Assembly: GCF_017873555.1 (NCBI RefSeq)
Contig: NZ_JAGGKE010000006.1
Coordinates: 62,001-126,000, forward strand
Direction of reading: 5' to 3'
DNA: 64,000 bases
Source: Halorubrum trapanicum
Lineage (GTDB): Archaea > Halobacteriota > Halobacteria > Halobacteriales > Haloferacaceae
In this document: positions 9,751 to 49,680 of the stretch, piece after piece
Layout: the number at the start of each line of letters is the position of its first letter
How positions within the stretch are numbered: the first letter of the stretch is position 1
The notes under the pieces: generated by a model
Told to the model about the DNA's origin: nothing
The model's database searches: none
Seen by the model: the letters and a program-made list of their open reading frames with translations, nothing else
Translations under genes and position numbers: made by a program

Positions 9751-9769
9751 TTCGCGAAACACGTGAACA
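9751..9769. promoter_or_regulatory. Imperfect palindrome in the amylase/glucoamylase divergent region
   Basis: GTTCGCGAAACACGTGAAC reads GTTCnCG-N5-CGnGAAC and lies between the divergent starts (9712 minus, 9817 plus). The region around it is AT-richer than the flanking genes. It is a candidate operator for a sugar regulator such as the nearby TrmB homologue, although it does not match the TACT-N-GAGTA type of TrmB site. Confidence 0.4.
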
Positions 9770-9816
9770 ACAATTACACCAAAACTTCATATCGCACCGC
9801 GGCGTACGATCTCGCA

Positions 9817-12003
9817 ATGCAACTCCGCGACGCGCTCGACGACTACAAGCGCCACGCCGGCGACGGGACGCACTTCCCCGGCGAGCGGCGCACCGTTTCC
9901 GGCCGTTTTTCGGGGGGAGACGGCCGGCTCGTCCACGTCGGCGACGACGGCGAACTCCGCGATTTCGGCTACCCGCTCACCGGTCGGACCGGTCTCGTTC
10001 GGTCCCGGATCGGTCTCGCCGTCGACGACGAGGTCACCTGGCTCGACGAGGCGGACACGACACAGCGGTACGTCGGCGACACCGCGATGGTCGAAACCGT
10101 CCACGAGACGCCGCGAGCGACGGTGACCCGCCACGACGTCACGCTCGGCGACGCGCACCTCACCCGCGCGTCGGTCGAGTTCCCCGAGGGGGAGTCGGCC
10201 GACGGCGGCGCCGACGGAACCGACCTCGGCCCTGCGGACCCCGCGGACGCCTCGCTCGTCGTCTACGCCCGCTTCGCGCCCGACGGCCGCGACGACCGGG
10301 TGGGACAGCTCCGGTTCGACGACGCCGTCGAGGTGTACCACGCCGACGAGCACGACTTCCTCGCGAGCGCGACCGGCTTCGCGGACCTCCGCGGCCAGCT
10401 CCCGGCGACGTTCCCGGAACTGCTCGACGACGACCCCACCGACCTCCCGCGCGACCGCGACGGCGACCGGTACGAGGAGGAGCGCCTCTCCGGGGAGGTG
10501 ATCGCCGACGTGCCGCTCTCGGACGGGATTGCGACGGTCGCCACGCTCCTGACGGACCGGGCGGAGACCGACCGCGAGACGGCCCGCGAGCGCCTCGACG
10601 CGCTCTTCGCCGACCTCGACGGCGTCGACGCGCTCGCGGACGCGGCCGCGGACGCGCTCCCGACCGTCCCCGAGTCGGCGCCCGCCCGCGAGTCCGTCGT
10701 CGCCGACCTGCGCGTCCTCTCGCTGCTCTCCGCGCCGTCCGGGCTCCGGATCGCGGGGCCGGACTTCGACCCCTACTACGAGCACTCCGGGGGCTACGGC
10801 TACACGTGGTTCCGCGACGACGCGGAGATATCCGGGTTCCTGCTCGGCGCCGCAGACGCGCTCGGCGTCGACCTCGACGACCGGCACGCCCGGTCCGCGC
10901 GGATGTACGTCGCCACGCAGCGCCCCGACGGCTCGTGGCCCCACCGGGTGTGGCCCCGCGACGGCGCGCTCGCGCCCGGGTGGGCGAACGCCCGCATCGA
11001 GGACGGGCCGGACGTCGACTATCAGGCCGACCAGACCGGCAGCGTCGTCGCGTACCTCGCGCAGGCCCGCGCCGCCGGCGTCGAGATCGCGGGGCTAGAC
11101 CGGACGCTCGTCGCCGCGCTCGCGGGCCTCGACCGGACGCTCGAACCCGACGGCCGCCCCGTCGTCTGTCAGAACGCGTGGGAGGACTCCGCCGGCCGGT
11201 TCACGCACACCGCCGCGACGTTCCTGGAGGCGTACAGCGAACTCGGCCGCCACGGGGAGGGGCTCGCCGTGGACGCGCTCGACGACTCCGACGCCGTGCC
11301 CGGCGCCGCGTCGCTCCCGGACGACCTCGCCGCGCACGCCCGCGACCGAGCCCGTGAGGTGTACGCGGCGCTCGACGACCTGTGGGTGCCCGAGCGCGGC
11401 TGCTACGCGCTTCGCGAGACGGTCGACGGCGGGATAGACGACCGGCTCGACTCGGCCACGCTGGCGCTGGCGGCCGCGCACCGCTCGTTCGACGCGCTCG
11501 GCGAGGCGGGCGAGGAGCGCCGAGACGGCGACGACGGTCCCGAGGCTGGCGGCGCGGTCGACGCGGAGCGACTCGACCGGCTGGTCTCGCACGTCGAGGC
11601 TGTCGTCGACGGGCTCTATCACGAGACCGACGCGATCACCGGGCTGACTCGCTACGAGGGCGACGGCTGGCGGCGGGCGGGGCAGGTCTCCGAGAAGGTG
11701 TGGACGGTCTCGACCGCGTGGGGCGCGCACGCCTGCGCGGAGCTGGCGGCCCTGCTCGCGGCGCACGACGACCCCCGCGCGGCCGAGATGACGGCCCGCG
11801 CCCGCGGTCTGCTCGCGCACGTCTCACCCGGCGGCTCCCTCTGCGAGCCGACCACGTACCTCCCCGAGCAGTTCTTCGACGACGGGACGCCCGACAGCGC
11901 GACCCCGCTCGGGTGGCCGCACGCGATCCGGCTGGCGACGGTTGCGCTGCTCGACGACGAGCTGCCGCAGTTCGCCGACCGCGCCGCCGCGGACGACGAC
12001 TGA
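9817..12003 (+). CDS. GH15 glucan 1,4-alpha-glucosidase (glucoamylase)
   Basis: A 728-residue protein. The N-terminal beta-sandwich domain (to about residue 290) is followed by an (alpha/alpha)6 barrel with GH15 blocks: GYGYTWFRDDAEIS, PDGSWPHRVWP, NAWED (general acid Glu456), VSEKVWTVSTAWG, and the C-terminal PEQFF (base Glu684) before PLGWPHA. It releases glucose from alpha-glucan non-reducing ends. I chose the ATG at 9817 (MQLRDALDDYKRHAGDG), the usual start in this family; the open frame begins 18 codons earlier in an AT-rich stretch. No signal peptide is seen, so a cytoplasmic role in glycogen or maltodextrin breakdown with the divergent GH13 enzyme is likely. Confidence 0.92.
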   Translation: MQLRDALDDYKRHAGDGTHFPGERRTVSGRFSGGDGRLVHVGDDGELRDFGYPLTGRTGLVRSRIGLAVDDEVTWLDEADTTQRYVGDTAMVETVHETPRATVTRHDVTLGDAHLTRASVEFPEGESADGGADGTDLGPADPADASLVVYARFAPDGRDDRVGQLRFDDAVEVYHADEHDFLASATGFADLRGQLPATFPELLDDDPTDLPRDRDGDRYEEERLSGEVIADVPLSDGIATVATLLTDRAETDRETARERLDALFADLDGVDALADAAADALPTVPESAPARESVVADLRVLSLLSAPSGLRIAGPDFDPYYEHSGGYGYTWFRDDAEISGFLLGAADALGVDLDDRHARSARMYVATQRPDGSWPHRVWPRDGALAPGWANARIEDGPDVDYQADQTGSVVAYLAQARAAGVEIAGLDRTLVAALAGLDRTLEPDGRPVVCQNAWEDSAGRFTHTAATFLEAYSELGRHGEGLAVDALDDSDAVPGAASLPDDLAAHARDRAREVYAALDDLWVPERGCYALRETVDGGIDDRLDSATLALAAAHRSFDALGEAGEERRDGDDGPEAGGAVDAERLDRLVSHVEAVVDGLYHETDAITGLTRYEGDGWRRAGQVSEKVWTVSTAWGAHACAELAALLAAHDDPRAAEMTARARGLLAHVSPGGSLCEPTTYLPEQFFDDGTPDSATPLGWPHAIRLATVALLDDELPQFADRAAADDD

Positions 12004-12019
12004 CCGGACCTCGGCGACT

Positions 12020-12286
12020 ATTTATAAATGATCAGTGCGGTCGGCGCGTGCCGACGAGCGCCCGCAGGGCGCGAGTCGCACGCGCGAGGGAGTCAGTCGC
12101 CCGGAGCAACGCGGAGGGCGACTGACGAGGCTGGGGAGGTGTGAGGTGCGGTTGCCGTGCGGGGCGGGACTCAAAGCCCCAGCCGGGAGGCGGACGCACG
12201 CTCGCTGCGCGCTTCAGTCGCTCGCGTTGCTCGCTCCTTCCAGTGCTTGCGTCGCCTGCGTCCGCCTCCCGGCTGGGGCTTTGGAG
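12020..12286 (+). ncRNA. Dispersed structured element, copy 1 (apical loop inverted)
   Basis: It begins with a palindromic TATA box ATTTATAAAT at 12020-12029, 16 bases after the glucoamylase stop. Helix 1 is GCGCGTG (12044-12050) with CACGCGC (12079-12085). Helix 2 is GTCAGTCGCC (12092-12101) with GGCGACTGAC (12117-12126). A conserved purine-rich strand starts GAGGCTGGGGAGG, followed by GGGACTCAAAG. The closing helix pairs 12170-12198 with 12257-12286: 29 base pairs with one bulged G, ending in CTTTGGAG. The loop at 12199-12256 is the reverse complement of the equivalent loop in copy 4. I do not recognise a known RNA family. Open frames through it are not credible proteins. Confidence 0.75.
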
Positions 12287-12290
12287 ATGT

Positions 12291-12440
12291 CCTCCGTCGA
12301 TCTCCCGTCGACCATTTATAAACGAGCGGCTGGAGATTTGGGGGTGTTCGCCATCGATCTACCGTCAGCTATTTATAAGCGATCAACTGGCGTTCTGGAA
12401 GTGATTACCGCCGCTCCGCTCACAACGACTTATAAATAGA
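12291..12440 (+). repeat. 3' tail of copy 1: about three degenerate ~58-bp units, each with a TATA-like box
   Basis: TATA-like boxes ATTTATAAA (12314), ATTTATAAG (12371) and TTATAAATA (12430) recur every 57-59 bases. The first unit, CGACCATTTATAAACGAGCG followed by GCTGGAGATTTGG, matches tail units of copies 2 and 3 and partly repeats the closing arm of the element. Together with copy 1 it fills the 462-base gap between the glucoamylase and the gene at 12466. Confidence 0.65.
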
Positions 12441-12465: not shown

Positions 12466-12651
12466 TTATCGCCACTCCTCGCGGGGAATACAGTCCTCCT
12501 CCCGGACCGTGACCCACCGGGTGGTTCGCTCGTCCGGGTCGACGTCCGGCTCGAAGAACGTCACCTCGCCGCCGTCGTCGCTGTCGGTCCGTTTACAGAC
12601 GAGTTCCGGCGACCCGTCGCGAACACGTGCGGATGACGTGGACGTGGACAT
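12466..12651 (-). CDS. Small haloarchaeal protein, DUF7511-like
   Basis: A 61-residue acidic protein. After a Ser/Thr-rich start it reads ELVCKRTDSDDGGEVTFF, then DERTTRWVTVREEDCIP and REEWR. This matches the pattern I recall for DUF7511 proteins (ELV...DERxTxWIT...VPLEEMR), which are small haloarchaeal proteins of unknown function. It stands alone, convergent to copy 1 of the repeat element and upstream of hisF on the same strand. The length is normal for the family. Confidence 0.7.
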   Translation of the reverse strand: MSTSTSSARVRDGSPELVCKRTDSDDGGEVTFFEPDVDPDERTTRWVTVREEDCIPREEWR

Positions 12652-12733: not shown

Positions 12734-12775
12734 CACCGGGACGCCGCGCTCAGCGCCGCACCGGGACGCCGCGCT
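12734..12775. repeat. Direct repeat duplicating the 3' end of hisF
   Basis: CACCGGGACGCCGCGCT occurs at 12734-12750 and again at 12759-12775, a period of 25 bases. The second copy is the hisF sequence for the C-terminal RGVPVR; the first lies just past the stop. This looks like a short tandem duplication. Confidence 0.8.
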
Positions 12776-13568
12776 CGTCGAGGTACGCCTTCGTCTCCTC
12801 GATGGAGTAGTCGCCGAAGTGGAAGATGGAGGCCGCGAGACCGGCGTCCGCGTTCGCCTCGGTGAACACCTCGTACATGTCCTCGGGGGAGCCGCAGCCG
12901 GAGGAGGCGATGAGGGGGGTCGAGACGGCCTCGCCGACCGCCTTCATCAGGGGAACGTCGTAGCCGTCCTTCGTCCCGTCCTTGTCGATGGAGTTGACGA
13001 ACAGCTCGCCCGCGCCGCGCTCCTCGGCCTCCTTCGCCCACGAGACGGCGTCGATGCCGGTGCCCTCGCGGCCGCCCTTCTTCGTACACTCGAACCACAC
13101 CGTCTCGCCGTCCTCGTCCTCGTAGAAGTGGTCGCCCGCGTCGTCGTACCGCCGCCGCGCGTCGACGGAGATGACGATGCACTGACTACCGAACGCGGCC
13201 GCGCCCTCCTCGATCAGCTCCGGGCGTTCGAGGGCGCCGGTCGTGATCGACACCTTGTCCGCGCCGGCCCGGAGCGTCTCCTTGATGTCGGCCTTGGTGC
13301 GGATACCGCCGCCGACCGTCAGGGGGATGAAACACTCGTCGGCGACCGCGTTGACCACGTCGAGCATCGTCTCGCGGCCGTCGGCGCTGGCGGTGATGTC
13401 GAGGAAGACGAACTCGTCGGCGCCGGCCGCGTTGTACTTCTTCGCCAGCTCCACCGGGTCGCCCGTGTACTCCAGGTTCTCGAAGTTGACGCCGGTGTAC
13501 ACCGCGGCGTCGCCGTCGTCGTCGCGGTCGACGTCGATACAGGGAATGATGCGCTTCGTGAGTCCCAT
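12750..13568 (-). CDS. hisF: Imidazole glycerol phosphate synthase, cyclase subunit HisF
   Basis: A 272-residue (beta/alpha)8 barrel of histidine biosynthesis. It uses ammonia from HisH to turn PRFAR into imidazole glycerol phosphate and AICAR. The start [14 protein letters not shown] carries the catalytic Asp, and SVDARR with the second catalytic Asp region ([13 protein letters not shown]) is present. Phosphate-binding loops ([20 protein letters not shown]) are intact. An acidic insertion ([23 protein letters not shown]) is typical of haloarchaea. No hisH is adjacent, so the partner is encoded elsewhere. Confidence 0.97.
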
Positions 13569-14942: not shown

Positions 14943-16262
14943 ATGGAGGTACGTCGCACCGTCCCCGTCAAACTCGACGTGGCCGACAGCGACGCTGACC
15001 TCCTCCACGAAACCATCTCCGAGTTCCTGTGGGCCGCCAACTACGTCGTAGACCACGCGTGGCAAGGCGAATACAAGACCACGAGCAAAGCTGAACTCCA
15101 ACGCGAAACCTACGACGACGTGCGGGCCGAGACGCGACTCCAAGCGAACCTCGTCCAAAACGCTCGCAACAAGGCTGCCGACGCCGTACAGAGCGTCGTC
15201 GCTCGGTGGAAGCAAGGCGACTACGCTGGGAAGCCGAACTTCTCCGCACCGACGCTCGTCTACGACAAGCGATGTGCGACGTTCAACGACGACCACGCGA
15301 CGCTCTCGACCGTCGAAGGACGCATCACCGCGGAGTACGTCCTCCCCGACGAGAACCGCGAGACGCCCCACTCGGAGTATCTGTTCAATGACGACTACGA
15401 AGTGACAGGCGGGGAACTCCACTACCGAGACGGCAATTTTTACCTTCACGTCCGAACAAAGGCGGACGTGGAGTTCGAGACTGCCGACGACGGCAACGAC
15501 GAGCACAGCACAGTCCTCGGCGTTGACCTCGGCATCGAAAACGTCGCCGTCACCTCCACAGGGACATTCTGGAACGGGTCGGAGTTGAATCACTGGCACC
15601 GCGAGTTCGAGAAGCGGCGTGGTTCACTCCACCAGCGCGGCACGCGGGCCGCCCACGAAACCATCCAGTCGGTCGGACGTACTGAGACGGGCCGCTACGA
15701 CCACTTCTTACACACTGTCTCCAAGGAACTCGTCGCGGAAGCCGTCGAGTATGGCTGCGACGTGATCGCGTTCGAGAACCTGACCGGGATTCGTGAGCGG
15801 ATGCCCAACGCCAAGAAGTTCCACGCGTGGGCGTTTCGACGCCTGTTCGAGTACGTCGAGTACAAAGCCGAAGTGGTTGGCATCTCGGTCGAACAGGTGA
15901 GTCCTGCGTACACGAGCCAGCGGTGTTCCAAGTGCGGCTTCACTCACGAGAACAACCGTTCAACCTCGGACGGACAGGACGTATTCGAGTGCCTGAAGTG
16001 TGGATACTCGCCCCACGCAGACTACAACGCGGCGAAGAATATCGGATTGAAGTATCTCCGTTCGGCGCAAAAGTCGTCGGGCGGAGGCGCACCCGTAAAC
16101 GTGCGTTTGAATCGCGGGATGTTGAACGTGAATGGCGAGTACGAGCCTTCCGCCGACGGCGGACAGAACGGGAGTCCATGCGAAAGCCCCACCCGCAACG
16201 AAGCGAACGGCGAAGTCGTTCGAGAGGCGCATAGCGCCTCTCGTGATGACGAGACGCCGTAG
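14943..16262 (+). CDS. tnpB: TnpB RNA-guided endonuclease (IS1341-type OrfB)
   Basis: A 439-residue TnpB. The RuvC residues are all present: Asp195 in GVDLGIEN, Glu278 in AFENL and Asp360 in HADYNAAKN. The zinc ribbon CSKC (328-331) with CLKC (350-353) is intact. Length is normal for haloarchaeal family members, with a Ser/Asn-rich tail that runs through the palindromes of the element's right end. TnpB proteins use an omega RNA made from the right end to cut DNA next to a short motif, which keeps the element in place. Nothing indicates decay, so it is probably active. Its base composition is less GC-rich than its neighbours, consistent with transfer. Confidence 0.95.
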
Positions 16263-29061: not shown

Positions 29062-29471
29062 CTCCAAAGCCCCAGCCGCGAGGACTCGCGCGGCTCGCTG
29101 CGCTCCTCGTCACTCGCTGCGCTCGTTCCTGCGGTGCTTCCGTCGTCACCAGAACGCTTCGCGTTCTGGTTGGCTCACGAGAGCTTCGCTCTCGTGAACG
29201 CCGTGCTTCGTCCTCGCGGCAGCGTGGCGCTACGCGCCACGGGCAGCGAGGGACTGCGTCCCTCGGGCAACCGGGCTTCGCCCGGTGACAGCCGGCGGCG
29301 GAGCCGCCGGCGACTGTCCCTTTGAGTCCCACCCAGCCCCGCACCTCACGCCTCCCCAGCCTCGTCGGTGGTCCTCCGCTTCGCTCCGGACCACCGACTC
29401 CCTCGCGCCGACGGTTCGCGGCCCTTCGGGCCGCTCACCGGGGCGCGCCACCGCATCGTCCGTTTATAAAC
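29062..29471 (-). ncRNA. Dispersed structured element, copy 2 (largest, six extra palindromes)
   Basis: On the minus strand it begins with a palindromic TATA box GTTTATAAAC (29462-29471), 15 bases past the aroE stop. Helix 1 is CGCGCC/GGCGCG (29442-29447 with 29404-29409). Helix 2 is GTCGGTGGTCC/GGACCACCGAC (29388-29398 with 29364-29374). Both are compensated versions of the helices in copies 1 and 3. The conserved strand and GGGACTCAAAG follow (to 29320). Six short palindromes with three-base loops are then present, at 29291-29311, 29270-29286, 29247-29265, 29224-29240, 29176-29196 and 29148-29170. An apical stem pairs 29210-29220 with 29075-29085. It closes with CTTTGGAG (29062-29069). Confidence 0.75.
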
Positions 29472-47834: not shown

Positions 47835-48230
47835 CTGTTTATAAACAGACGAAGCGGTCGGCGCGTGTCTCCGAGTGGCCGCCGAAGGCGGCCGCGAGTA
47901 GTGAGAGACCGACGGTCTCTCTGACAGCCGGCGGCTTTGCCGCCGGCGAGAGCACGCGCGAGGGAGTCAGTCGCCCGAAGCGGAGCGAGGGCGACTGACG
48001 AGGCTGGGGAGGCGTGAGGTGCGGTCGCGGTGCTGTGCTGGGCGGGACTCAAAGGGGCAGCCGTGAGGCGGGCGCAGGCGATGTAAGGACCACAGGGAGC
48101 GAGCGAGTGAAACGAGCGACCGACCGAGGACCGCAACGAGCGTGCGCCCGCCTCACGGCTGGGGCTTTGGAGGCGTTCCCTATCGGTCTACAGTCGACCA
48201 CGTATAACCGAGCGGCTGGGGCTTTGGAGG
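47835..48230 (+). ncRNA. Dispersed structured element, copy 3, with one tail unit
   Basis: The 14-bp palindrome CTGTTTATAAACAG (47835-47848) contains the TATA box. Helix 1 GCGCGTG/CACGCGC (47861-47867, 47953-47959) encloses three palindromes with three-base loops (47877-47893, 47904-47920, 47927-47947). Helix 2 is GTCAGTCGCCC/GGGCGACTGAC (47966-47976, 47989-47999). The conserved strand follows, then CTCAAAG (48048-48054). The closing stem is 19 bp (48058-48076 with 48143-48161), ending CTTTGGAGG (48165-48173). A second unit, CGACCACGTATAACCGAGCG plus GCTGGGGCTTTGGAGG, runs to 48230. It occupies most of the 586-base gap between pyk and thi4; the rest holds only the pyk promoter side. Confidence 0.75.
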
Positions 48231-48303
48231 ACTCCGTCGTCGGGGCGTCAGCGGGAAGCGATGTACGAGCGACTGCGGCTTCGCCCGTTAGGGAATTCGT
48301 TTA

Positions 48304-49239: not shown

Positions 49240-49330
49240 ACAACTTAGTAGTATTACTTGGTTGTGAAATGTGTTGCGGTCGATACGCGGCTGTGTTTAT
49301 AAGGCGTGACTGTGAGACGGCGGCGAACAC

Positions 49331-49589
49331 CTCCAAAGCCCCAGTCGCGAGGGCACCGTACGCTCGCTGCGCGCTTCAGTCGCTCACTCCGTTCGCTCCT
49401 TCCAGTGCTTGCGTCGCCTACGGCGCCCTCGCGACTGCCCCTTTGAGTCCCACCCGCACAGCACCGCGCCTCACGCCTCCCCAGCCTCGCCGCTCGCTCG
49501 GGGCTCCCTTCGGTCGCCCACCTCGCTCGCGGCGTCCCTCGCGCGTGCGACTCGCGGCCTTCGGCCGCTCGTCGGCACGCGCCACCGCC
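49331..49589 (-). ncRNA. Dispersed structured element, copy 4 (TATA end missing)
   Basis: On the minus strand, helix 1 GCGCGTG/CACGCGC is at 49576-49582 with 49541-49547. Helix 2 has a different sequence, CGCCGC/GCGGCG (49529-49534 with 49488-49493), but keeps the pairing. The conserved strand GAGGCTGGGGAGG and GGGACTCAAAG follow. CAGTCGCGAGGGC/GCCCTCGCGACTG forms the apical stem, and it closes with CTTTGGAG (49331-49338). The 5' TATA palindrome is absent, replaced by the promoter region of rpl37ae. The tail to about 49295 contains TTTATAA upstream of thi4. Confidence 0.72.
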
Positions 49590-49680
49590 TCCGTCACCCG
49601 CGTTCCGTCGTCGCCGCGGGCGTTTCCGACCGCCGCAACTCGCAGCCTTTTTACCTGCGCTGCCGGTAGAAGTGGCTACT

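Follow-up and report, generated by a model that had tools for sequence, protein, structure and literature searches.

Recurrent loop inversion in a Halorubrum hairpin repeat, probably through replication template switching

The 64,000-nucleotide stretch of the Halorubrum trapanicum genome analyzed here (the window) holds four copies of a dispersed hairpin repeat, one of which (copy 1) carries its apical loop in the reverse orientation. This inversion happened in place and is derived, and flips of the same kind recur independently elsewhere in the family. We consider it probable (roughly 0.7) that the loop of copy 1, one copy of a Halorubrum-wide hairpin repeat, was turned by template switching during replication.

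Copy 1 occupies an intergenic site between a GH15-type gene (9763-12003, plus strand) and a small DUF7511 gene (12466-12651, minus strand) that is followed by hisF (12750-13568, minus strand). Read on the plus strand, it comprises helix A (12044-12085; GCGCGTGC / GCACGCGC), which has an inner hairpin and a conserved CGAG/CGAG tandem G-A, helix B (12092-12126; GTCAGTCGCC...GGCGACTGAC), and a conserved core, ACGAGGCTGGGGAGGTGTGAGG (12125-12146), which sets the orientation of the element. The apical hairpin follows, with a left arm (12172-12198), a loop of 58 nt (12199-12256) and a right arm (12257-12283). The two arms are perfect over 27 bp, slightly less than the 29 bp given in the earlier note, which had put the loop at about 58 bases. 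An alternative fold can be drawn in which two segments at the left-arm base, CAGCC and CTCA, face GGCTG and TGAG of the core (12127-12146, 12166-12187), and this pairing would compete with the apical stem. On the 3' side lie tandem units, now decayed and each about 57 bp long (TTTATAA...GGCTGG-GNTTTGG; 12284-12400, plus strand; direct repeat family D14). Such units (TTATAA plus GGCTGGGGCTTTGG) are found 3' of many element copies, e.g., at 48162-48240 as well as at 12284-12400, and two nearly identical ones occur in a region upstream of the element (L309). A TnpB-type gene (OrfB_IS605, Cas12f1-like; 14943-16262) is located 2.7 kb from copy 1, and no relation between it and the element was seen. 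The other copies in the window, all with normal loops, are copy 2 (29068-29460, minus strand), copy 3 (47850-48175, plus strand, with 19-bp arms at 48058-48076 and 48143-48161) and copy 4 (49328-49590, minus strand). Copy 2 has several small palindromes such as CGAGACGCCTTCGGCGTCTCG inserted in its loops and helices (29150-29310). Two small palindromes also occur in the loop of another copy (L296) and are missing from the related loop of L295, so that they are gained and lost as modules.

The earlier note had reported that the loop of copy 1 is reversed relative to its own core while those of copies 2, 3 and 4 are not, and our analysis confirmed this observation. The cores of copies 1 and 3 run on the plus strand and those of copies 2 and 4 on the minus strand, so that copies 1 and 4 are opposed (12125-12146, plus, versus 49469-49490, minus). 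Nevertheless, both share the same loop words on the plus strand, at 12205-12223 and 12240-12256 in copy 1 and at 49367-49385 and 49402-49418 in copy 4. Aligned with the loop of copy 4, that of copy 1 scored 45.5 of 58 when re-inverted and -10.5 as it stands. The same held against the family, where the reverse complement outperformed the direct reading for all 128 normal loops compared, with best scores of 51.5 and -2.0, respectively, and at most 2.5 for shuffled loops.

Copy 1 is not a single exception. The core was matched 137 times (up to 3 mismatches) in the 3.08-Mb genome to which the window belongs, the reversed control giving no match, and 18 further Halorubrum genomes have between 15 and 195 core matches each. 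A scan of named genomes with the core pattern returned matches almost exclusively from Halorubrum. Parts of other haloarchaeal families also have the core, but there a different hairpin comes after the 5' part of the element. Among these, one set of copies (L260-L275) has the 5' part joined to the hairpin GCAGTAGCTAGCTTC..., and in some of them (L262, L266) a 5' part lies at either end, forming a long inverted repeat. Copies in its own genome mostly lie on the 3' side of genes; among the 84 that were resolved, 39 are between convergent genes and only 3 between divergent ones. All but about 38 of the 137 core copies were read there, and loop orientation could be parsed for 91, of which 81 were normal and 10 flipped. 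Two exact patterns applied to 52 Halorubrum genomes yielded 45 true flips and 1543 normal copies. The 45 remained from 50 pattern matches after five copies (L202, L203, L211, L220, L237) proved to be normal elements read from the right arm; L207 and L152 were also excluded. The patterns were specific on the copies of the own genome and recovered about 67% of its normal and 90% of its flipped copies, which together with the counts puts flips at roughly 2-3% of the family, and more in this genome. By pattern, 9 of 83 copies were flipped in this genome versus about 36 of 1505 elsewhere, but this apparent fivefold excess was dropped as a real effect since the pattern had been tuned on the flips of the own genome.

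Both orientations thus occur in this and in related genomes, the normal one being far commoner. The earlier note had held that its observation would fall if every other copy showed one orientation and copy 1 were an assembly error; flips were instead found in about 20 other Halorubrum genomes. Several of these flipped copies come from long or single-contig assemblies (G110, G316, G163, G323), so assembly error is no general explanation. After precise trimming, four flipped loops were exact reverse complements of normal loops found elsewhere. An old and separate subfamily of flipped copies was also considered and rejected. Untrimmed arm bases mimic such a subfamily; with trimmed loops, clustering was weak (the nearest neighbour of a flipped loop was itself flipped in 17 of 42 cases, versus 10.8 +/- 3.1 after shuffling) and flipped loops were scattered among normal ones.

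Comparison of orthologous loci revealed an element that keeps its position while its loop reverses, since the direction of the core is constant and that of the loop varies. The flank of copy 1 is present at some level in all 52 Halorubrum genomes, and the core runs in the same direction in every genome with an element at this site (GH15 / DUF7511-hisF). The loop is normal in 20 other species and flipped in this genome (G000) and in one distant species (G290). A starred branch separates these two genomes in the hisF tree, which implies at least two changes at the locus. Likewise, at a second locus (L005) this genome and G323 are flipped, at least 14 species are normal, and the tree needs two changes, whereas at a third (L003) the flip is seen in this genome only. 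At the corresponding site of G120 (L307), only fused remnants of the element survive, its right arm abutting helix A; this internal deletion is a sign of how unstable the hairpins are. These comparisons also bear on the two origins proposed in the earlier note. Inversion through the stem is supported by loci that keep the core orientation and have a normal loop in other species. A cassette inserted either way round is not supported, as flipped loops are the loops of normal copies and the orthologous sites already contain the loop. The hairpin sequence at a given locus differs strongly between species, turning over much faster than the flanking genes. For this reason copy 1 has no immediate ancestor to be compared with and no event could be retraced base by base, which counts against the template-switch reading.

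Some of the flipped copies bear a further mark in their arms. The left and right sides of the hairpin base, AAAGGGGCAG and CTGGGGCTTT, form a mismatched block in the family. Copy 1 has the family-typical GGCTGGGGCTTTG as its right base, and its left base reads AAAGCCCC in place of the AAAGGGGC of the family. Its left block, AAAGCCCCAG, is the exact complement of the right one, the sole case among 178 distinct copies, and its CCCC is likewise the only one at the left base in those 178. The mirror case is provided by L005 and L218, in which the right base reads TGCCCC and the left base is present twice, and in L089 the right arm is the complement of the left. At least four flips therefore have one arm replaced by a copy of the other (the left in copy 1, the right in L005, L218 and L089), and such conversion is absent from about 41 of the 45. 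Conversion of the base was found in 3 of 45 flipped versus 2 of 155 normal copies, an excess that is suggestive only. In copies with an interrupted stem (L199, L206, L209 and others), an asymmetric inner stem was inverted together with its loop, and the inversions thus differ in where they end. Uninterrupted arms were also longer in flipped than in normal copies (median 19 versus 14 bp, p = 0.014).

Template switching would account for these features as follows. During replication, the growing strand would leave its template within the left arm, copy the complementary right arm and the loop backwards, and rejoin the original template inside the right arm. Backward copying of the right arm and loop would turn the loop into its own reverse complement and make the outer left arm a copy of the right one. 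The agent would then be the replicative polymerase, switching templates between strands, and we infer that the flips are rare accidents and not the output of a programmed switch. Reciprocal recombination through the arms offers a second, unlikely, route to the same inverted loop. The arms are unchanged in most flipped copies, and the roughly 41 of 45 flips without arm conversion fit reciprocal exchange equally well. The longer arms of flipped copies also speak for it, as do interrupted-stem copies such as L199, which look like clean reciprocal inversions that broke within the outer stem. On the other hand, arms of 13-27 bp are short for homologous exchange, and reciprocal exchange alone yields neither copy 1, with its right arm present twice, nor L005 and L218 with the left base twice, nor L089 with the left arm twice. 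A simple inversion cannot leave one arm in duplicate, but a single template switch can, given appropriate switch points.

Two further sources of inverted loops are less probable still. Copy 1 could have taken its orientation from a flipped paralogue by ectopic gene conversion, and the fast turnover of hairpins at orthologous loci relative to the flanking genes does suggest exchange between copies. However, neither the hairpin of copy 1 nor its left-arm CCCC was found in any other genome copy examined, flipped loops form no family of their own, and conversion only relocates flips that something else must have created; we regard this origin as improbable. Different species can show either orientation at shared loci, as would also be expected of a site-specific recombinase that switches the loop in a regulated way (phase variation). 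Against it, flips, at a few per cent, are nowhere near equilibrium, and we found no fixed recombination site or crossover word common to invertible copies, the breakpoints lying in arms that differ among the flipped ones. Nor was an invertase present among the five genes tested around copy 1 (GH15, DUF7511, hisF, a glycosyltransferase and the TnpB-type protein). A regulated switch is not supported, and we rate it the least probable of the explanations considered. The non-reciprocal arm mark, the variation in breakpoints and the greater arm length of flipped copies together favour template switching over a recombinase.

The host element itself has three helices and the appearance of a structured RNA or repeat. 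Pairs were counted by hand, as the RNAalifold structure had helix A in the wrong register. The 16 consensus pairs of helix A were 93% standard over 141 aligned copies, against 17-58% in slid controls, with full pair switches (e.g., GC/CG 65/58) and with the conserved tandem G-A flanked by covarying pairs. Similarly, the 8 bp of helix B adjoining the core were 90% standard across 37 distinct variants. On the core strand, G-U exceeded A-C in helix A (85 versus 21) and in one pair at the base of the apical stem (25 versus 1), with no clear asymmetry in helix B (10 versus 6), although related copies are not independent in these covariation and G-U counts. An excess of G-U is expected if an RNA of the core strand is selected and unexpected for a hairpin that acts as DNA. 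No part of the window matched Rfam 15 at the gathering score, the only hits being weak, hairpin-only microRNA look-alikes far below the cut-off. In the literature searched, by name and by sequence, there was no match to the element, whose words turned up in no archaeal context; it appears to be undescribed. When clean empty sites were sought, species without the element also lacked the neighbouring tandem units, which leaves the ends undefined. This abundant three-helix repeat (137 copies, e.g., 12044-12283), with its RNA-like covariation, merits a study of its own. It is improbable, about on a par with ectopic conversion or slightly below it, that the element is a new and abundant archaeal structured RNA whose two heritable loop orientations, one purine-rich and one pyrimidine-rich, differ in regulatory effect and act as a slow genetic switch.

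Reversal of a hairpin loop through template switching is a known kind of cause, of which this case would be an archaeal, long-spacer and recurrent instance. In yeast, the spacers of inverted repeats are inverted by intermolecular template switching, with or without homogenisation of the arms and also in parallel (PMC8604942). The Halorubrum flips share these traits, since a loop between inverted arms is reversed relative to normal orthologues (copy 1) or equals, base for base, a normal loop read backwards on the other strand (four flipped loops), one arm is sometimes homogenised, and the change recurs in parallel. They differ in being archaeal, in affecting a dispersed repeat instead of coding genes, and in numbering dozens of instances within one genus. 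Their spacer of about 58 nt also far exceeds the 2-5 bp inverted in yeast (PMC8604942), which counts against template switching. Loop inversion by template switching has also been described for rRNA and MIR633 hairpins (PMC8794818), which resemble ours in combining stem correction with loop inversion in hairpins apparently selected as RNA structure; in Halorubrum, however, the loop is long, the repeat has more than 100 copies and an RNA function is a matter of inference. Finally, the element resembles REP/BIME, MITE and PATE repeats, including the MITEs, PATEs and SMRs of Haloquadratum (PMC3119063), in being short, non-coding, palindromic, intergenic and present in many copies per genome. Unlike these repeats, it has a three-helix architecture and a strand-specific G-U excess, and no insertion sequence or target duplication is tied to it.

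In the Halorubrum repeat, hairpins of a single kind have undergone dozens of natural, independent inversions whose loci are known and whose normal state is preserved in sister species. It thereby becomes possible to measure directly, in archaea, how often template switching occurs, what strand bias it has and how it depends on stem length; we found no comparable archaeal survey in the literature searched. The repeat also illustrates how a dispersed family can have its stems restored and its loops reversed through template switching, and compensatory changes in such families therefore need not be two-step. The flips of Halorubrum are a good natural data set and point to an apparently undescribed element.
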